From positions 248,001-312,000 of the forward strand of contig CAJTCU010000001.1 in the NCBI GenBank assembly GCA_910574935.1: a stretch of 64,000 bases of DNA. The letters are read 5' to 3'. Positions 19,239 to 33,075 of this stretch are shown here, piece by piece. The DNA is from Oscillospiraceae bacterium. Lineage in GTDB: Bacteria > Bacillota > Clostridia > Oscillospirales > Acutalibacteraceae. Within the stretch, counting starts at the first letter, position 1, and each line of letters begins with the position of its first letter. The translations under genes and the position numbers were made by a program. Under the pieces are notes generated by a model. That model worked only from the letters and a program-made list of their open reading frames with translations. It made no database searches and was not told the origin of the DNA.

Positions 19239-20228
19239 CTACCGCCGGCCCGCGCCGCCGCCGTGGGTTCCGCCTCCCCGGTGGAAACCTCCCCCAGAGT
19301 GACCGCCAAAGCCGCCGCGCCCAGCGCCGCCCCCACGGGAGCCGCCGCCGCTATGGAAGCCGCCTCCAAAACCGCCGGGCCGGGGCCCGCCAAAGCCACC
19401 CGGACGGGTTCCGCCAAAGGGCCCTGGCGGAGGCGGGGGCGGGGGCGGACCCCACCGGGGACGCCGGCGGTTCATCATGCTGCCCAGCATCATGCCCTGC
19501 CAAAAGCCGCTGCCCCCGCCTCCTCGATAGCCACCGCCGCCTCCACCCCGGCTGGCCCGGATAATGGCCGCGATAATGGAGATTGCCACCACAGCGCCTA
19601 TAATACGGATGATAAGCCCCACAATAAAGCGAAACGCGCCGCTTCCGTTGCCCAGGAAGCCCCGGTCCTCCTCATACTCATAGTACTCCTCGCCTTGGGG
19701 CGGGTTCAGCTGGCCCCCGCCGCCGTAGTAGCTCTCCAGCTCGTCCCGCACCGCCTCAAAAAAGGCCAGGGCCCCCTGGTCGTAGTCTCCTGCGGCGAAA
19801 TCATCCTCTAGGTAGTCGTCCAGCAGGCCTTGCAGTCTGGCGCCGTCAAAATAGTCCTCAATACCGTAGCCCGCCTGGGCAAAATAGTCCTCCTCGCCAA
19901 TGGCCATGACCAGCAGAATGCCGTTGTTGTTCTCCCGGGAGCCCACGCCCCAGGTTTCGAACAGCACCGTGGTATAGTCCCGAATGTCCCGGCCCCCCAG
20001 AAAGTCCACAGCCACAATGACCACTTCGGCCCCATACTTGCTAAAAAGCTGGTCGTTGCCTTTTATAATGGCCCGCTCCGTCTCCGGGGTGATCACCCTG
20101 GCCTCATCCAGCACATACTGGTTCTCCGGCCGCTCCGGCACAGCAGCCAGGGCCGAAAGCGGCAGCCCCGCTGCCAGCAGAAACACCAGAAGCACGGCCA
20201 GCGCCCGGGCAAACAGGTTTTTTTTCAT
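19239..20228 (-). CDS. TPM-domain (YgcG-like) exported protein with glycine-rich tail
   Basis: A 329-residue protein. It has a signal peptide (about 1-28), a TPM domain (38-165; YVLDEARVITPE and NNNGILLVMAIGEEDY are typical), one membrane helix near 205-230, then a glycine/proline-rich tail dominated by FGG and GGG repeats. TPM proteins are thought to act in envelope maintenance or photosystem-like assembly and are often encoded with LemA, as here (lemA-like gene immediately upstream). It is the last gene of the minus-strand cluster. The tail composition is low-complexity, so its role cannot be inferred. Confidence 0.88.
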   Translation of the reverse strand: MKKNLFARALAVLLVFLLAAGLPLSALAAVPERPENQYVLDEARVITPETERAIIKGNDQLFSKYGAEVVIVAVDFLGGRDIRDYTTVLFETWGVGSRENNNGILLVMAIGEEDYFAQAGYGIEDYFDGARLQGLLDDYLEDDFAAGDYDQGALAFFEAVRDELESYYGGGGQLNPPQGEEYYEYEEDRGFLGNGSGAFRFIVGLIIRIIGAVVAISIIAAIIRASRGGGGGGYRGGGGSGFWQGMMLGSMMNRRRPRWGPPPPPPPPGPFGGTRPGGFGGPRPGGFGGGFHSGGGSRGGGAGRGGFGGHSGGGFHRGGGTHGGGAGRR

Positions 20229-25844: not shown

Positions 25845-25873
25845 TTGACATAATCTGAAGTAAACGTTAGAAT
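25845..25873 (+). promoter_or_regulatory. Sigma-A promoter ahead of the TPM/MBOAT operon
   Basis: A perfect TTGACA (25845-25850), 17 bases, then TAGAAT (25868-25873), 43 bases before the TTG start at 25917. The next large gap downstream on the plus strand is at 28306, so it may drive at least the TPM and MBOAT genes. Confidence 0.8.
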
Positions 25874-25916: not shown

Positions 25917-26816
25917 TTGACCGGCCTACATAAAAGTAAAATATTCGCCAGCCTATTCGCGTCCTTATTTACCCTTTGGGTATTCTTGATATTAGGGGTC
26001 GCGCCCCTGGCACTGGCAGACCAGGGCGGCGCTTTCGCCAAGGACGCGCTGCCCCAGCCCAGTGAGGAATTTTATGTAAACGACCAGGCCTCTCTGCTCA
26101 CCGAGGCCACCAAGACCGAAATTTTGAATAAAAACGCTTCCTTAAACCAGAGCTACGGGGTGCAGCTGGTGGTCTATACGGTCCAAACGCTGCCGGGCTC
26201 GGACTTTGCTGGCCGGGTGGAATATTTGCATTCGTTAATAAGCGCTTGGCAGGTGGGCGGCGCGGGGGGCCGGGGGCTGCTGGTGGCCCTGTCCGTCTCA
26301 GACGGCGACTACCTGGCCGTGGCTGGGGATGGGCTGAAAGCCCTGTTTACCACCGAGACCTTAAAGGGGCTTTTGCAAAATCATTTAGAAGCGGATTTTA
26401 GCACCCAAGCCTATGACGCCGGCGTGCTGAAGTTTTTTAACGCAGCCGCGGCCCAGGCAGAGTCATACTGCGCCGCCCACCCAGAGCTTTTTGCCCAGCA
26501 AAGCCCCTCCTCCCAGGTCCAGCGTCCGGCCTCTTCCAAGAAGAGCCCGGGCAGCCCGGCGCTGCTGTGGGTGGGCATAGCCGCCGGGGTGGTGGCGGTG
26601 GCCAGTATTGCCGTGTTCATTTTCAGCGGACACATCGGTTCCCGGCGGCGTGGCCGGGCTGTGCACAGGCACCGGCCGCTGATCACCCCCGCCCGCACCA
26701 ATGTGCTGCGCCACGAAACCCGCCCCATGGTGCAAATTAAGTCCTACCGCCAGTCCACAGGCGTGTACCGCAACCAAAAGCCGAGCCGTACCAGCCGTAA
26801 CGACCGCCGGCAGTAG
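25917..26816 (+). CDS. TPM-domain exported protein
   Basis: A 299-residue protein. A TTG start is required: the nearby ATG at 25909 runs into a stop, and GGGAGAGG lies about ten bases before the TTG. A signal peptide covers about residues 8-35. The TPM domain follows (50-180; YVNDQASLLTEATK and GGRGLLVALSVSDGDY). One membrane helix lies near 215-240, and the tail is Arg-rich and cytoplasmic. It shares architecture with the TPM protein at 19239 but has a basic rather than Gly-rich tail. It is first in the run TPM-MBOAT-DHHW-FkbH-ACP, 67 bases ahead of the acyltransferase, which suggests a role in the same envelope process. Confidence 0.82.
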   Translation: MTGLHKSKIFASLFASLFTLWVFLILGVAPLALADQGGAFAKDALPQPSEEFYVNDQASLLTEATKTEILNKNASLNQSYGVQLVVYTVQTLPGSDFAGRVEYLHSLISAWQVGGAGGRGLLVALSVSDGDYLAVAGDGLKALFTTETLKGLLQNHLEADFSTQAYDAGVLKFFNAAAAQAESYCAAHPELFAQQSPSSQVQRPASSKKSPGSPALLWVGIAAGVVAVASIAVFIFSGHIGSRRRGRAVHRHRPLITPARTNVLRHETRPMVQIKSYRQSTGVYRNQKPSRTSRNDRRQ

Positions 26817-26883
26817 GGAGCCGCAAAGAAAAACCTGCGGCCCCCTATTTTAAAGAATCGTTAAAAATGAGGAAGTGCCTGTC

Positions 26884-28305
26884 ATGGTTTTTGCCGATCT
26901 GTTTTTTATATACTGTTTTCTGCCCCTGATTCTGGTCTGCTACCTACTGGCCAGAAGCATTCCCGCCAAAAACGTTGTGCTCATTATCTTTTCCCTAATC
27001 TTCTACGCCTGGGGCGAGCCCTTGTGGGTTCTTCTGCTTCTATTCAGCTCTCTTTTTAATTGGGGCGTGGGCATGGTCATTGAGCGCACCCGGGACTCGG
27101 GGGGCGCAAAGGCTGCGGTGGCGGCGGGCATTGTGATAGACCTGGCCCTGCTGGTGGTGTTCAAATACAGCGGCTTTATTGTAGAAAATATTAACGGCCT
27201 CACGGGCCTTGGGCTGCCTGTGCCAAATATTCGCATGCCCATTGGCATCAGCTTTTTCACCTTTCAGGCCATCTCCTATATTTTGGACTGTTACTGGGAG
27301 TCCGTAAAGGTCCAGCGGCGCTACCACCGGTTTTTGCTGTATCTCTCCCTGTTCCCCCAGCTCATTGCCGGGCCTATTGTGCGCTACAGCGTGGTGGAGG
27401 AAGAGATTGAAAACCGCAGCGCCAGTCTGACAGACCTGTGCGAAGGAGCCCTGCGGGTGATGGTGGGGCTGGGGAAAAAGGTCATTTTAGCCAACAACCT
27501 GTGGGCCATTGTGGATACTTTCTTCGGCAAAGACGTCACGGGCCTTTCGGTGCTGGGCACCTGGTACACAGTCATCGTCTACTCCCTGTACGTCTATTTC
27601 GACTTTAGCGGCTACTCGGACATTGCCATTGGCCTGGGGCGCATGTTTGGCTTCCATTTTGACGAAAACTTTCGCCACCCCTTTGCCTGCAAGACCATTG
27701 CCGAGTTCTGGCAGCGCTGGCACATCTCCCTGGGTTCCTTTTTTCGGGATTATCTGCTGTATGTGCCCGTCTTTGGCAAAAACCGCAAGTACGTCAGTCT
27801 GTTTTTGGTATGGTTCTGCACCGGCGTATGGCACGGCGCTGCCTGGAACTACATTCTTTGGGGCCTATATTTTGGCTTCTTTATTTTCTTCGAGCAGAAG
27901 CTGGGCAAAAAACGCATGAAAAAATGGCCCCTTTGGTGGAAGCATATCTACAGCAAGATTGTGATCATCATTGGCTTTGGAATCTTCTATTTCGAGGACC
28001 TGGGCCAGCTGGGGCAGTTTTTCCTGAACATTTCTGGGGTGGCCATGCTGACCAGCGGAGCTCCCCTGTACGACCCCATAACCTGGGCTTCCTTGCTGGA
28101 CAATCTGTTCCTGGTGCTGGGATCAGCGGCTTTCAGCCTGCCCTTGCTGCCAAAAGTGAAGCGGTTCTTTTTGGAGAGCAAAAGCGACGGCCTGTACCTG
28201 GCCGGCCGGGTGGGGTCGGCAGTGGTTTGCTTAGGGATACTGACGGTAGTCAGTATCCTATTGGTGGACTCCACCAATAACGTGTTCCTGTACTGGAACT
28301 TTTAA
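26884..28305 (+). CDS. MBOAT-family O-acyltransferase (AlgI/DltB-like)
   Basis: A 473-residue polytopic membrane protein with about ten hydrophobic segments. Family signatures include YFDFSGYSDIAIGLGRMFG, the FW.RWHISLG segment (FWQRWHISLGSFFRDYLL), and GVWHGAAWNYILWG, whose His is the catalytic residue of MBOAT enzymes. The start at 26884 follows GAGGAA by about nine bases; an in-frame GTG at 26875 is less likely. AlgI and DltB move acyl groups through the membrane to polymers outside. Here the following DHHW, FkbH-like and carrier-protein genes supply candidate partners. Confidence 0.92.
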   Translation: MVFADLFFIYCFLPLILVCYLLARSIPAKNVVLIIFSLIFYAWGEPLWVLLLLFSSLFNWGVGMVIERTRDSGGAKAAVAAGIVIDLALLVVFKYSGFIVENINGLTGLGLPVPNIRMPIGISFFTFQAISYILDCYWESVKVQRRYHRFLLYLSLFPQLIAGPIVRYSVVEEEIENRSASLTDLCEGALRVMVGLGKKVILANNLWAIVDTFFGKDVTGLSVLGTWYTVIVYSLYVYFDFSGYSDIAIGLGRMFGFHFDENFRHPFACKTIAEFWQRWHISLGSFFRDYLLYVPVFGKNRKYVSLFLVWFCTGVWHGAAWNYILWGLYFGFFIFFEQKLGKKRMKKWPLWWKHIYSKIVIIIGFGIFYFEDLGQLGQFFLNISGVAMLTSGAPLYDPITWASLLDNLFLVLGSAAFSLPLLPKVKRFFLESKSDGLYLAGRVGSAVVCLGILTVVSILLVDSTNNVFLYWNF

Positions 28306-28463
28306 AAAAGCGCCCCACGCTCTTTTTAGCGCCTGTTTCGTATCTGGACGTATGCGGGTTCCAGCCGCGGACTTTTCGTTAGAGGAACACAAGAGTTGGC
28401 ATCGCTGACTCTACTTGCGCACAGCCCAACAAAACTTTTAAACACTCACAAGGAGGCGCGGTA

Positions 28464-30374
28464 ATGGACCGTGACAACCATATTAATGATCCCCGGCGGC
28501 CGGCGGCCCTTCAAAGAGACGCCGCAGCCTCCCCGCCTCGGCGGCTGAACCTGAACGTACCCGAGCGCTTTGGCGGCGTTTATTCGCCGAAAACCACAGA
28601 GCGCTCTTTTAACCGCTACCGGCAGGCGGATTTTACGACTGCTGGTTTCATCCCCCAGGAGGAAGCCCCTTCGTCCCCTGCTGAGCCGTACTTTTATCCA
28701 GAGCAGCAGGTTCTGAACCCGCAAGTTCTATACCAAGAGGGCCTAGAACCTGCCCAAGAGGCTACCGGCTTATACCAGCCGGCGGAAAACCCGCCCGAGG
28801 ACTATGAGAGCTTTTATCCCCAGGACGATTTTAGCGGGGTCCTGTCCCCCCAACAGGACCTGAAGCAGCCGCCCCGGTCCCGGAAAAAAAAGTTTGACCG
28901 CCGGGCCCTGCTGGAACGCCGGGCCTCGGTGGTGGTCATAGCTTTATTGATCTTATGCTTTTCCGGTATGGCCGCGGCCATGTGGCTGCTGCCCAGATCC
29001 ACGGAGTCAATGATTGAAAAGCGCGAGCTGGACAAGCTGCCGGAATTTTCTTTTGAAACCTACTTTTCCGGAGATTTCACTGCGGGAGTGGCCCACTACT
29101 ATACTGACACCGTGCCCATGCGGGATGACCTGAAACGAATCGGCAGCCAGATCAAAAGCGTGTTCGGCCTGCCAAAAAGCGAGGGCGGCGTTAAGTTTGT
29201 GGGCAATGTAAATAAGCTGGACCAGAATAAGCCGGCCCCAAGCCCCTCCTCCGGCCAGCCTAGCGCCCAGCCCCCTGAAAGCGGCACTACCCCATCCAGC
29301 GGGGAGCAGCCCCCTGTTACACCCGTGGGCAATAATGGGAACGCGGGCCTGGAGGGCGCCGCCGGCCGGCACATGGACGGCGCCACCCCTGCCCCAGCGG
29401 ACAACCCCTTTACCAACCAGGACGCCGAGTACAGCGAAAAGAACGGTATTATCATTGTAAAGCAGGACGGCCACTACCGGGGCCTAGAGCTGTTCGGGGG
29501 CGGCAGCGGGGAAAGCTATGCCCAAAACCTGAATACCCTGCACAGCACCCTGGGAGACGGCGTGTCTATTTGGTCCATGCCCGCGCCCCTGGCCTGTGAA
29601 TTCTATACGCCCAAAAATTATGAGAACTACACCGCCAACCATTCCGACTGTTTTGACGCCATAGCCGCCAAGCTGAATCCCGGCATCCATTCTATCAACG
29701 TGTGCCCTGTGCTTTCCCAGCATGTGGAAGAGCCCATCTACTGCCGCACGGACCACCACTGGCAGCCTTTGGGGGCCTACTACGCGGCCCAAGCCTTTGC
29801 CCAGGCGGCGGGGGTATCCTTTGACGACATCAGTACCTATAAAAAGATGACCCGGGAGGGCTTTGTGGGCAGCCTGTACTCCTTTGCGGGGGACGCGGCG
29901 GAGCTTCTCAACGACCCAGAGGAATTTGTCTATTACATGCCTGGTAAAGACTACCAGACCGTGTACTATGATACCAGCTTCAACTACCTGTGGGATGAGG
30001 ACGACTTCTTCCAGGAAGGGGCCGAGGGATCGGATTCCTATATGATCTACCTGGGCGGCGACCAGTATATTGTTAAGGCCGACACCCCCACCAAGAACGG
30101 TCGAAAGCTGCTGGTGGTAAAGGACAGCTATGGCAACACCATTCCGCCGTTTTTGGTGGGCTCCTTTGAACAGATTTATGTGGCGGACATGCGCTATATG
30201 GAGCGAAACCTCGTTAGCTTTATCAAAGATATGGGCATTACGGACGTGCTCTTTACCATGTCCTCCTATTCGCTGGTAGGGGACGCGGCCAACAACCTGG
30301 AAACCCTGATGAGCCAGAACGTGGGCGAGACCGTGACGGACGACTATACGCCGGGAGGCGGCGGGGAGGAGTAA
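28464..30374 (+). CDS. DHHW-family extracytoplasmic protein (AlgJ/AlgX/DltD-like partner)
   Basis: A 636-residue protein. The first 150 residues are polar, proline-rich and probably cytoplasmic. One membrane helix lies at about 155-177. A Pro/Ser-rich spacer (250-320) leads to an extracytoplasmic SGNH-like domain with TDHHW at 429-433 and KDSYGN at 553-558, both hallmarks of the DHHW family that accompanies MBOAT acyltransferases. By analogy with AlgJ/AlgX or DltD it should complete acyl transfer to a surface polymer. AAGGAGG precedes the start. It follows the MBOAT gene by 158 bases. The long N-terminal cytoplasmic part is unusual. Confidence 0.85.
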   Translation: MDRDNHINDPRRPAALQRDAAASPPRRLNLNVPERFGGVYSPKTTERSFNRYRQADFTTAGFIPQEEAPSSPAEPYFYPEQQVLNPQVLYQEGLEPAQEATGLYQPAENPPEDYESFYPQDDFSGVLSPQQDLKQPPRSRKKKFDRRALLERRASVVVIALLILCFSGMAAAMWLLPRSTESMIEKRELDKLPEFSFETYFSGDFTAGVAHYYTDTVPMRDDLKRIGSQIKSVFGLPKSEGGVKFVGNVNKLDQNKPAPSPSSGQPSAQPPESGTTPSSGEQPPVTPVGNNGNAGLEGAAGRHMDGATPAPADNPFTNQDAEYSEKNGIIIVKQDGHYRGLELFGGGSGESYAQNLNTLHSTLGDGVSIWSMPAPLACEFYTPKNYENYTANHSDCFDAIAAKLNPGIHSINVCPVLSQHVEEPIYCRTDHHWQPLGAYYAAQAFAQAAGVSFDDISTYKKMTREGFVGSLYSFAGDAAELLNDPEEFVYYMPGKDYQTVYYDTSFNYLWDEDDFFQEGAEGSDSYMIYLGGDQYIVKADTPTKNGRKLLVVKDSYGNTIPPFLVGSFEQIYVADMRYMERNLVSFIKDMGITDVLFTMSSYSLVGDAANNLETLMSQNVGETVTDDYTPGGGGEE

Positions 30375-30439
30375 TCGGACGCCTACTCCCCCCAACGCTT
30401 CCCCCCTTGCTCTATGAATCTCCTTTAGGACGTGATATC

Positions 30440-32224
30440 ATGATGGAACTGCAATACCCCTTTGACCCTGCCCAGATCATTCGCCGCCGCAAAGCCCTGC
30501 GAAAGGAACTGCTGGCCCTGGACGAGCCCCGCCTGACCAAAAAAATCGCGGTTTTGGGCGGCTCCACCACCAGCGACATTGTAAAAACTCTAGAGCTTTT
30601 CCTCCTAGACGCGGGCATTCAGCCAGAGTTCTATGAGTCGGAGTACGCCCAGTATTTTCAGGACGCCATGTTTCCGCCTCAAGAGCTGCTGGATTTTGCC
30701 CCAGACCTGATCTTTGTGCACACCACCAGCCGAAACATTACCCACTGGCCCCAGATTACCGACAGCCCAGAGGACGCGGACCGCTGTTTGGAAGAAGAGC
30801 TGGAAAAGTTTCGGGCCGTGTGGAAAAGCCTGGAAGAGCGCTTTCACTGCCCTGTTATCCAAAACAATTTTGAAAAGCCCTTTTACCGCCTGCTGGGCAA
30901 CCGGGATGCCTGGGACCACCGGGGCCGGGTCCACTTTACCGCCCGGCTGAACCAGGCCTTTGCCGCCTGGGCAGAAACGCACCAGGGGTTTTACCTAAAC
31001 GACATTGACTATCTCTCCGCGGACTTTGGCCTGCGCCGCTGGGCGGACCCGGCTTTTTGGAACCTGTATAAGTACGCCCTTTGTTTTGAGGCCATTCCCG
31101 CCTTTGCCTTTAACCTGGCGAACATCGTGAAGTCTCTATTTGGCAAAAACAAAAAGGCCCTGGCCCTGGACCTGGACAACACCCTATGGGGCGGCGTGGT
31201 GGGCGACGACGGGGTGGACGGCATTGACATTGGCCAGGAAAACGGCGTAGCCCAGTCTTACTATGAGTTCCAGGGCTACCTGAAGCAGCTGCAAAGCACC
31301 GGCGTACTGCTGACGGTCTGTTCCAAAAACGACCTGGAAAACGCCATTGCCGGCCTGGAACACCCCGAAGGGCTGCTGCGCCCTGGGGACTTTATTGTCA
31401 TCAAGGCCAACTGGGAAAATAAAGACCGGAACATGCTAGAGATTGCCCAGGAGCTGAACATTTTACCAGACGCCATTGTCTTTGCGGACGACAACCCCGC
31501 CGAGCGGGAGATCGTGCGGGCCCAGGTAAAGGGTGCGGCCGTGCCGGAGATGGAAGGGGTAGAGAACTACATTGCCGCCATTGACCGGGGCGGGTACTTT
31601 GAGGCCACTACATTTAGCGAGGACGACTTGAAGCGCAACGATATGTATAAGGCTAATGTTCAGCGGGCCGCCCAGCAGGCCAGCTTTGGCGACTACCAGG
31701 AATACCTGAAAAGCCTGGATATGCGGGCGGTCATCGACGATTTTCTGCCCGTGTACCTGGGGCGTATCACCCAGCTAAGCAACAAGAGCAACCAGTTCAA
31801 CCTGACCACCCGGCGCTACACGGTGGAGGAAATGGAGCAGGTGTTCGCCGACCCGGGGTACATCCGGCTATACGGCAAGCTGGTGGACAAGTTTGGGGAC
31901 AACGGGGTGGTCTCGGTGGTCATTGGCAAAAAGAGCGGCTCTGTGCTGGATGTAGAGTTGTGGCTGATGAGCTGCCGGGTGCTGAAGCGGGATATGGAGC
32001 TGGCCATGCTGGACCGGCTGGTACAGCGCTGCGGAGAGCAGGATATAGAGACCATCCGGGGGCACTATTACCCCACGGCAAAAAACAACATGGTGCGAGA
32101 GCTGTACGCTGGTTTTGGCTTTGAGAAAACCGCGGAGGACCAGGCGGGCAACACTACCTGGGAGCTAAAGGTGGCCGGGTACCAGCCCAAATGCAAAGTA
32201 ATCGAGGTAAGCGGCAATCCCTAA
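30440..32224 (+). CDS. FkbH-like protein (HAD-IIIC phosphatase/acyltransferase fusion)
   Basis: A 594-residue three-part protein. The N-terminal domain (about 30-230) is SGNH-like (VLGGSTTSDI). The HAD-IIIC core (about 235-390) has the nucleophile motif LDLDNTLWGG with D244 and D246, the CSKND element and FADDNPAERE. The C-terminal domain (about 430-585) is GNAT-like (NKSNQFNLTTRRYT, ending in a YPTAKNNMVRELYAGFGF segment). FkbH relatives dephosphorylate 1,3-bisphosphoglycerate and load the glyceryl unit onto a carrier protein; a carrier gene follows directly. The start at 30440 has AGGA ten bases upstream. Specificity for glycerate is inferred from family, not seen. Confidence 0.88.
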   Translation: MMELQYPFDPAQIIRRRKALRKELLALDEPRLTKKIAVLGGSTTSDIVKTLELFLLDAGIQPEFYESEYAQYFQDAMFPPQELLDFAPDLIFVHTTSRNITHWPQITDSPEDADRCLEEELEKFRAVWKSLEERFHCPVIQNNFEKPFYRLLGNRDAWDHRGRVHFTARLNQAFAAWAETHQGFYLNDIDYLSADFGLRRWADPAFWNLYKYALCFEAIPAFAFNLANIVKSLFGKNKKALALDLDNTLWGGVVGDDGVDGIDIGQENGVAQSYYEFQGYLKQLQSTGVLLTVCSKNDLENAIAGLEHPEGLLRPGDFIVIKANWENKDRNMLEIAQELNILPDAIVFADDNPAEREIVRAQVKGAAVPEMEGVENYIAAIDRGGYFEATTFSEDDLKRNDMYKANVQRAAQQASFGDYQEYLKSLDMRAVIDDFLPVYLGRITQLSNKSNQFNLTTRRYTVEEMEQVFADPGYIRLYGKLVDKFGDNGVVSVVIGKKSGSVLDVELWLMSCRVLKRDMELAMLDRLVQRCGEQDIETIRGHYYPTAKNNMVRELYAGFGFEKTAEDQAGNTTWELKVAGYQPKCKVIEVSGNP

Positions 32225-32473
32225 AAGCGGACATACGCGAAGGGAGAAAGGGTCCAGGGAACTGGTTCCCTAGCAGGGGTCAAGGGGGCAGCGCCCCTTG
32301 CCGCCGGAGGCGACCTTAATCCCTTAAAAAGCGGCGCGCAAAAAGCCAAGTGCTTTCACCACCCCACCCCAGTCCGCGCTCAGGGCTTGCGCCCCGAGAC
32401 CCCACGGCGCAAAGCGCCTATTTTCCATTTTCCCAGCTGTTGAAAATTACTACACAGAAAGGACGAGATCACT
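32225..32473. repeat. R3-type hairpins between the FkbH and carrier genes
   Basis: Contains AGGGAACTGGTTCCCT, CAAGGGGGCAGCGCCCCTTG and a CCGCCGGAGG tail, the same style as at 57117-57182. They may act as an attenuator that lets the carrier protein be made at a different level from the enzymes upstream. Confidence 0.55.
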
Positions 32474-32719
32474 ATGGACATCAGAGAAGTTTTTACCCGC
32501 CTAAACCGCGTCTTTCAGGAGGTCTTTGACGACCGCACCATTCGAGTGAACCCCCAGACCACGGCGGACGACATTGAGGACTGGGACAGCCTGGAGCACA
32601 TCACCCTTATTTCCGCTGTGGAGCGGGAGTTCCGCATGAAGTTCAAGATGGGGGAGATTTCCTCCATGAAGAATGTGGGCGAGATGGCGGCCATCATTCA
32701 AGAGCGGGCCAAGGGTTAA
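32474..32719 (+). CDS. Acyl carrier protein
   Basis: An 81-residue carrier protein with the phosphopantetheine attachment site DWDSLEHI, Ser39. The acidic helix II typical of carrier proteins follows (ISAVEREFRMKFKMGEI). GAAAGGA lies before the start. It is a stand-alone carrier outside any fatty-acid operon and follows the FkbH-like gene, so it is probably the carrier that receives the unit loaded by that enzyme and presents it to the MBOAT acyltransferase, as DltC does in the dlt system. This partnership is inferred from gene order. Confidence 0.88.
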   Translation: MDIREVFTRLNRVFQEVFDDRTIRVNPQTTADDIEDWDSLEHITLISAVEREFRMKFKMGEISSMKNVGEMAAIIQERAKG

Positions 32720-32762: not shown

Positions 32763-32928
32763 AGGGCTTGTTTGAAAATAGAGGAAATGACGGATTTTTG
32801 ACCAGAAACGGTCAGTTTCAAGGAGAAAACCGCAAGTAATACTTGCGTATTACGAGGATTATCGACGCAGAAGATGGTTGCTTCTGGGTAAAAAGACGGC
32901 GTTTTCGATTTTTTAAACAAGCCCTAGG
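32763..32928. repeat. R2 dispersed palindromic repeat, copy C (best example)
   Basis: Ends AGGGCTTGTTTGAAAA and TTTTTTAAACAAGCCCT are complementary. Internal blocks are GAGGAAATGACGGATTTT, TTTCAAGGAGAAAACCGC, ACGAGGATT and GGGTAAAAAGACGG. It is located between the carrier-protein stop and the 33021 terminator. Confidence 0.85.
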
Positions 32929-33020
32929 CGAGGTAGTCGCCCAGCTTAAAATCGGTATGTACCGATTTTTAAGTGTGTTTACTATAACAGCCCAAGGACT
33001 GCATGTCCTGAAAATAATAC

Positions 33021-33057
33021 AAAAAAGGTTACGCCGAGGTTTGGCGTAACCTTTTTT
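33021..33057. terminator. Bidirectional rho-independent terminator
   Basis: Left arm 33021-33035 (A6 then GGTTACGCC) pairs perfectly with 33043-33057 (GGCGTAACC then T6), with a seven-base loop. It serves both the carrier-protein operon (plus) and the 33076 gene (minus). Confidence 0.92.
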
Positions 33058-33075
33058 GTTTTCTCCCAGCTCTTC

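Follow-up and report, generated by a model that had tools for sequence, protein, structure and literature searches.

In the Dlt system (DltA, DltB, DltC, DltD and DltX), which D-alanylates teichoic acids, an acyl-shuttle motif is carried on a separate microprotein, DltX. Other systems likewise combine an MBOAT acyltransferase with a DHHW or other SGNH partner, among them PatA1/PatB1, which O-acetylates a secondary wall polymer, PatA/PatB, and CcsH/CcsI (classed as MBOAT-SGNH-type in the relevant part of PMC7710045). The shuttle motif, FXYXXF, has been defined for PatA and DltX, and the passages of the same source that deal with MBOAT-SGNH pathways besides Dlt describe them as carrier-less and acyl-CoA-using (PMC12148441). 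FkbH-like enzymes are associated with a different chemistry: in polyketide pathways, according to the sections concerned in PMC7489565 and PMC4979870, glyceryl bound to an acyl carrier protein (ACP) passes to dehydrogenases or FabH-like enzymes and on into polyketides. Here, we describe a cluster in which both kinds of component stand together, on a 64,000-nucleotide stretch of an Oscillospiraceae bacterium (bases 248001-312000 of contig 1 in a 4.17-Mb genome; this whole stretch is referred to as the window). Judged from its sequence, the cluster probably encodes a carrier-dependent MBOAT-SGNH surface acylation system in which the FkbH-like enzyme would be the loader and glyceryl from 1,3-bisphosphoglycerate the likely cargo. 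Its genes are:

25917..26816, + strand: TPM-domain protein (PF04536, 74 bits, 1.4e-20), with a TTG start and an N-terminal hydrophobic segment recognised by eye
26884..28305, + strand: MBOAT acyltransferase, 473 amino acids (PF03062, 84.5 bits)
28464..30374, + strand: DHHW acyltransferase of the SGNH superfamily (PF14286, 141.3 bits)
30440..32224, + strand: FkbH-like putative carrier loader, 594 amino acids (TIGR01686, 260.4 bits; cut-off 146.65)
32474..32719, + strand: dedicated acyl carrier protein, 81 amino acids (Ser39 motif, relatives, sub-cut-off NCBIfam ACP matches)

The original prediction had placed these five genes, in this order and on one strand, at 25917-32719. This arrangement was borne out: all five open reading frames (ORFs) are intact, as are the catalytic residues, four have profile matches, and the carrier is recognised by its serine motif and relatives. 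For the FkbH-like protein and the MBOAT, the ATG starts at 30440 and 26884 were preferred over the longer ORF starts given previously.

The FkbH-like protein consists of three parts, an N-terminal FkbH_N domain (PF21211), which adds to the HAD/GNAT fusion recognised at first, followed by a HAD-IIIC and a GNAT-like domain. It clears the TIGR01686 cut-off with its HAD aspartates present, which makes it a member of the FkbH family by sequence. Of these residues, Asp244 (at 31169), Asp246, Asp350 and Asp351 are kept in 94 of 95 aligned FkbH rows (the remaining one has a gap), and Cys512 (codon 31973-31975, in an SCR motif) is found in all 95. Cys294, in a CSKN stretch, was also considered as the general acyl-carrying residue and rejected, being cysteine in only 34 of the 95 rows as opposed to the invariant Cys512. 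The small protein encoded downstream had no Pfam match, and its matches to NCBIfam ACP profiles were all below cut-off (best 2.3e-7). Its putative identity as a carrier rests on its relatives and on Ser39 (32588-32590), a phosphopantetheine-type serine in the motif WDSLEH, which is aligned in 87 of 87 ACP rows (rows that had been picked as ACP-profile matches).

The MBOAT contains a catalytic-type histidine, His317 (codon 27832-27834), in the stretch GVWHGAAWN, and ends in FLYWNF (28285-28302), which includes Tyr470 and fits the shuttle motif. Its AlphaFold2 model (mean predicted local distance difference test score, pLDDT, 85.9) has DltB as the closest fold in the PDB (6bug and 8jem; template modelling scores 0.57-0.69). 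Despite this DltB-like fold, the protein scored 155 bits against the DltB equivalog TIGR04091, under the cut-off of 375. Of 80 complete MBOAT ORFs, some of them carrier-free, 74 showed the shuttle-motif pattern (six further ORFs are cut by contig ends). His317, Phe468, Tyr470 and Phe473 are invariant in 24 of 24 aligned FkbH-linked MBOATs, a set hand-chosen after the motif count and including none of the six motif-less ORFs; 74 of 80 is the fairer number. The DHHW protein has one N-terminal hydrophobic anchor (by eye), the DHHW motif at 29751-29762, Ser555 (codon 30126-30128) and the residues DMRY as block II. By sequence it matches 4nzk and PatB1 of Bacillus cereus (5v8d), and its profile matches are to DHHW and ALGX, not to DltD. 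Of 49 aligned rows, 47-48 have the DHHW motif, Ser555, Asp575 and Arg577, and 40 have Tyr578 (one row is a fragment).

These features would be compatible with a pathway of three steps. As in the FkbH family, the FkbH-like enzyme would bind the glycolytic acyl phosphate 1,3-bisphosphoglycerate, perhaps forming an acyl-enzyme on Cys512; the HAD domain would strip the 3-phosphate, and the dedicated carrier would receive the glyceryl group on its phosphopantetheine arm. By analogy with DltB and PatA, the MBOAT would then unload the carrier on the cytoplasmic side and, with the help of His317, transfer the group to Tyr470 of its own C-terminal motif at the outer face. Finally, as in PatB1, Ser555 of the DHHW protein would accept the group and esterify an acceptor, presumably a cell-envelope polymer. 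That the FkbH-like enzyme loads the carrier and that the MBOAT uses this carrier is very probable from the gene content described below; that the transferred group is glyceryl is, by analogy with characterised FkbH proteins, probable.

The FkbH alignment retrieved at least 594 relatives, of which the best 80 were inspected as named loci. They are mostly from Bacillota, many titled Oscillospiraceae, Ruminococcus or Lachnospiraceae; being the nearest relatives, they are therefore a biased sample, and one of them (L097, Neglectibacter sp. X58) repeats a genus mate from the genome sample treated below (G010), with identical MBOAT and FkbH, which suggests that the host of the window is a near relative of Neglectibacter (family Oscillospiraceae). 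In 72 of the 80 loci, a same-strand carrier gene followed FkbH no more than 3 kb downstream (70 of 75 where at least 500 bp downstream were available), and a same-strand MBOAT gene lay within 5 kb in 34 of the 49 loci with both flanks of at least 4 kb (39 of 49 anywhere in the examined stretch). Conservation of gene set and order, by which the original prediction was to be judged, holds: 22 loci contain ACP, FkbH, MBOAT and DHHW together (two of them also TPM) and 37 contain ACP, FkbH and MBOAT, followed by ACP and FkbH (9), ACP, DHHW and FkbH (4), FkbH alone (4), FkbH and MBOAT (2), DHHW and FkbH (1), and DHHW, FkbH and MBOAT (1). Two designs can be distinguished. Type A shares the order of the window cluster, MBOAT-DHHW-FkbH-ACP; in type B, FkbH-ACP stands with another kind of MBOAT and with other partners, which include a GDSL family (eight loci), a protein with a sub-threshold DUF1574 match, and a family, present in 11 loci, in which SGNH-like motifs were seen by eye and no Pfam match was obtained (one member scanned).

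In a further, independently drawn sample of the class (148 genomes, the own one counted), 20 genomes gave 24 FkbH-family matches. Nine of the matches, the window counted, have a carrier and an MBOAT close by; three have a carrier-like ORF and no MBOAT (L177 and L180, in sugar/flagellin clusters, and L196, which is weak); the remaining 12 either look polyketide-like, are truncated by the end of a contig or are ambiguous. Among these 12 is L192 (2606-8407), where a short FkbH of 350 amino acids lies near an MBOAT gene and a 615-amino-acid ORF, with no carrier detected and the end of the contig close by.

Co-inheritance was assessed in 60 genomes, own included, with E <= 1e-12 as the criterion for the carrier. 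FkbH matches occurred in 16 genomes, in 15 of them in the long form. The dedicated carrier was found in 14 genomes, all among these 15, and in none of the 45 others. MBOAT matches as such were common (51 of 60 at E <= 1e-50), and those with at least 53% identity, a limit set after a gap had been noticed (next best matches <=45%), were again confined to 14 genomes, all within the 15. Fisher's exact test returned p ~9e-13 for each of the pairs FkbH/carrier and FkbH/MBOAT, shared descent being ignored here and in the comparison below. The short FkbH, in genome G044, is neighboured by 3-hydroxyacyl-CoA dehydrogenase-like, acyl-CoA dehydrogenase-like and ACP-like ORFs (by eye), and this locus looks like a methoxymalonyl cassette.

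In five of the 15 genomes with a long FkbH, its gene is unlinked from the cluster, and the comparison of these five with 16 FkbH-less genus mates gave p 5e-5. In four of the five, the FkbH lineage differs from that of the rest of the cluster (all phylogenies reported here are quick trees). These four (G009, G017, G018 and G022) have a cluster of TPM-MBOAT-DHHW-ACP without FkbH and an FkbH gene adjoining pheS- and pheT-like genes (by eye); their MBOATs fall in the window-type group, and their FkbHs form one group within the lineage of type-B and unassigned proteins, apart from the window type (support 100). Most simply, these genomes would have lost the resident loader and a foreign FkbH would have replaced it; alternatively, the present FkbH may be an old second copy that stayed when the linked copy was lost. 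On both accounts this is one event and not four. In the fifth genome, G004, the unlinked FkbH is of the same lineage as in those four, the MBOAT is of type B, and the carrier is encoded elsewhere. A functional unit is well supported by these comparisons, in which carrier and FkbH share genomes without having to be linked. On this comparative evidence, the putative carrier, loader, MBOAT and DHHW protein behave as a single inherited unit, and their association is not due to chance.

Whether a different enzyme might load the carrier was judged against the rest of the genome. No DltA exceeded the cut-off anywhere in it, the best two matches to TIGR01734 scoring 72.3 bits against a cut-off of 559.85, and none was seen in the cluster, which leaves the FkbH-like protein as the cluster's sole candidate loader, as originally proposed. 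DltD (PF04914) and DltX (PF12459) had no match in the genome either, and control searches with both profiles found B. subtilis and L. lactis; a Dlt system elsewhere in the genome was rejected on these results. The initial label "dlt-like" is apt for the logic, in that a carrier feeds an MBOAT/SGNH pair, and fails for membership, since DltA, DltD and DltX were not found and the DltB equivalog cut-off was missed. Ligase-like proteins do occur in the genome, the two 72.3-bit matches being far under the cut-off, so that the dedicated carrier might be loaded by an unlinked ligase, or be fed by fatty-acid synthesis, with FkbH acting in some other way. This account is countered by the shared distribution of carrier and FkbH, which persists where the two are unlinked, and by the fact that the only other ACP match in the genome is just 23% identical to the dedicated carrier; we consider it highly improbable. 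Because of this low identity, an acyl-ACP from fatty-acid synthesis also appears unlikely as the true donor.

The FkbH-carrier pair is not bound to a single MBOAT lineage. In the MBOAT tree, a single branch separates the 34 window-type rows from all others (Shimodaira-Hasegawa-like approximate likelihood ratio test, 100). A constraint placing all FkbH-linked MBOATs in one clade gave an approximately unbiased (AU) test p-value of 1.5e-43, and a single clade was rejected. Gain of FkbH-ACP by MBOAT-SGNH pairs, or its loss from them, has thus occurred repeatedly, and FkbH-carrier pairs are found with at least two MBOAT lineages and with SGNH partners of several kinds. The AU test covered 63 of 93 rows; the 30 left out comprise 11 labelled "far", 12 window-type ones (thinning) and seven named rows, that is, L052_par, L064_par, L156_7008 and near or exact duplicates. 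Two rows of the tree itself, L052_par and L064_par, sit on very long branches and probably represent wrong ORFs, and seven carrier-free paralogue loci (L048-L051 and L053-L055) were left out of it. "Carrier-free" denotes here that the dedicated carrier of the genome is elsewhere or absent, with mostly 1.5-kb flanks examined.

The same data bear on a more conventional explanation, namely that MBOAT and DHHW protein constitute an ordinary acetyl-CoA-dependent O-acetyltransferase and that FkbH-ACP is an unrelated neighbour making glyceryl for another use. Carrier-less MBOAT-DHHW pairs are described as O-acetylating in the pertinent passages of PMC9487903 and PMC12148441, and the own genome encodes two more MBOATs (C-terminal FIYFRF and FLYFRF) that have neither FkbH nor a dedicated ACP in their vicinity and by analogy may serve as internal controls for the putative acetyl-CoA type. 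What makes this explanation distinctly unlikely is the co-inheritance that persists in unlinked genes, the presence of an FkbH from a different lineage in genomes that lack the linked one, and the pairing of FkbH-ACP both with one particular MBOAT group and with other MBOAT and SGNH lineages too.

As to the cargo of the proposed FkbH-loaded system, gene-by-gene inspection of the window cluster revealed no gene whose product might oxidise or reduce glyceryl or methylate it. Three families do occur near FkbH-ACP in the 80 named loci, a MaoC-like dehydratase (12 loci), an SDR (8) and a methylmalonyl-CoA-epimerase-like VOC protein (12), and DHHW genes are absent from every locus listed for them. 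The same machine might, then, transfer another group, the carrier-bound glyceryl being converted to another C3 acid (e.g. lactyl) or epimerised by enzymes encoded elsewhere. This account could draw on the three families and on PMC7901079, a table of which gives D-lactate-ACP as a product of FkbH loading; it is at odds with their segregation from DHHW loci and with the gene content of the window cluster, and we regard it as unlikely here. For type B, those neighbours suggest that glyceryl may be reshaped, perhaps to lactyl. In four loci (L178, L189, L124 and L162), FkbH-ACP stands with MaoC-like, SDR-like and MBOAT genes (named by eye in L178 and L189), and conversion of glyceryl to lactyl before surface transfer is possible there. 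The loading module of bryostatin, for its part, contains FkbH, a dehydratase and a ketoreductase.

Carrier-borne glyceryl may also be used in the cytoplasm. In L177 (4700-11993), FkbH, carrier and an epimerase-like VOC protein are encoded inside an operon with PseC, PseG, PseH and PseI (all above NCBIfam cut-offs), which suggests that carrier-borne glyceryl could serve to acylate a nonulosonic acid. The part of PMC9912281 concerned reports N-glyceroyl pseudaminic acid from Tannerella forsythia, and both observations would fit FkbH-ACP as a general glyceryl donor. With regard to a possible acceptor polymer, a neighbour family resembling GT2/CDP-glycerol glycerophosphotransferases (one member scanned) was present in four of the 80 loci (L101, L104, L106 and L111).

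Several observations weigh against the assignment of the window cluster to glyceryl transfer onto the surface. Two of the 15 genomes with a long FkbH lack one component, G014 the carrier (this genome is 63% complete) and G004 the MBOAT orthologue. No carrier was detected in eight of the 80 named loci, three of which are at a contig end (L098, L108 and L133) and five of which have 1.6 to 8 kb downstream (L156, L118, L130, L136 and L146). Of the 49 well-flanked loci, 15 have no same-strand MBOAT within 5 kb and 10 none in the examined stretch; in L131, L140, L163 and L164, two DHHW genes accompany FkbH and ACP, with no MBOAT in the examined flank. Six of the 80 complete MBOAT ORFs do not show the shuttle-motif pattern. 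The cysteine of the CSKN stretch is not conserved, and Cys512 is a candidate active cysteine only. Where type-B loci have MaoC and SDR genes, the final group may be one other than glyceryl. FkbH-ACP pairs also occur in clusters devoid of MBOAT (pseudaminic acid, flagellin), so that such a pair alone is no proof of surface O-acylation.

With these points taken into account, we lean, with some reserve, towards a widespread FkbH-ACP-MBOAT-SGNH class in Clostridia that would turn 1,3-bisphosphoglycerate into glyceryl or glyceryl-derived (lactyl) surface esters without an ATP-using ligase, the FkbH-ACP cassette being modular and plugged into several MBOAT-SGNH pairs as well as into cytoplasmic sugar acylation. 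If this holds, 1,3-bisphosphoglycerate is diverted without such a ligase, and surface chemistry would therefore be coupled to glycolytic flux. A conserved carrier and a glycolysis-linked loader beside MBOAT-SGNH pairs in many Clostridia predict a surface modification that might escape analyses centred on acetyl groups; the gene set is defined, and the predicted product is glyceric acid, freed from wall polymers by mild base.

The first gene of the window cluster is not part of this set. Among the 80 named loci, TPM adjoins the cluster only in L097 (in L100 the TPM match is elsewhere); comparison of neighbours and these loci mark it as genus-specific, and TPM as a core part was rejected. It is an accessory gene upstream of the cluster in the genus-level version. 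A second TPM-domain protein (329 amino acids; 19239-20228, - strand) is encoded in the window beside genes that we take to be TelA-like and XpaC-like, the latter with a match to PF10112. The cluster is bordered by two further features:

25845..25873, + strand: sigma-70-like promoter TTGACA-17-TAGAAT, 5' of the first gene (consensus scan, 11 of 12 positions match; sequence resemblance only)
33016..33062, strand undecided (the scan reports - only): inverted repeat with T-rich tails, a likely terminator at the operon end

Between the carrier gene and this terminator lies an element of 167 bp resembling a miniature inverted-repeat transposable element (32763-32929), with 18-nt terminal inverted repeats, of which the own genome has at least 39 full or near-full copies, window copy counted (51 match rows; 40 of 162 candidates scored). 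The gap between FkbH and carrier genes (32225-32473) spans 249 bp, contains short GC-rich palindromes and possibly an inserted repeat; it measures 252 bp in G001 (L026) and only 32-53 bp in L024, L025 and L027.

Among the full-text literature matches listed, most subscription papers being outside the search, no description of FkbH with an MBOAT-SGNH surface system was found, in agreement with the claim made at the outset that no described system has this logic; two papers mentioning both terms concern, by title and abstract start, aeruginosin-type cyanobacterial peptides. The nearest solved relatives by sequence give little guidance as to function, both having been deposited as putative or uncharacterised: 2lml for the carrier (1.3e-16) and, for the FkbH-like protein, 3slr, which is BF1531 of Bacteroides fragilis (1e-47) and which, along with many GNAT enzymes, is also matched by a structural model of the protein (pLDDT 87.5). 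The former is presumably GmACP3 of Geobacter metallireducens. GmACP3 is linked to lipopolysaccharide genes.

With polyketide FkbH-ACP modules (methoxymalonyl-ACP, tetronates), the window cluster shares an FkbH-like enzyme and a discrete carrier. The HAD aspartates and Cys512 are likewise common to the window FkbH and that of L035, which appears to be methoxymalonyl-type by its neighbours (by eye). Unlike in these modules, no dehydrogenase or FabH-like genes were seen in the window cluster, which has the MBOAT-DHHW pair instead. With Dlt it has in common a dedicated carrier with a phosphopantetheine-type serine, an MBOAT of the DltB fold and an SGNH partner outside; it differs in that the putative loader is FkbH-like, the SGNH partner is of the DHHW type, and the shuttle motif is on the MBOAT itself. 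The MBOAT and DHHW protein are nearer to the PatA1/PatB1 type than to Dlt, with an MBOAT that has a catalytic-type histidine and a C-terminal FXYXXF motif, and a partner related to PatB1 with the Ser, DHHW and DXR(Y) residues. In contrast to PatA1/PatB1, however, carrier and FkbH are conserved alongside the MBOAT-DHHW pair, which runs counter to the view of non-Dlt MBOAT-SGNH pathways as carrier-less, as put forward in the passages cited above (PMC12148441).

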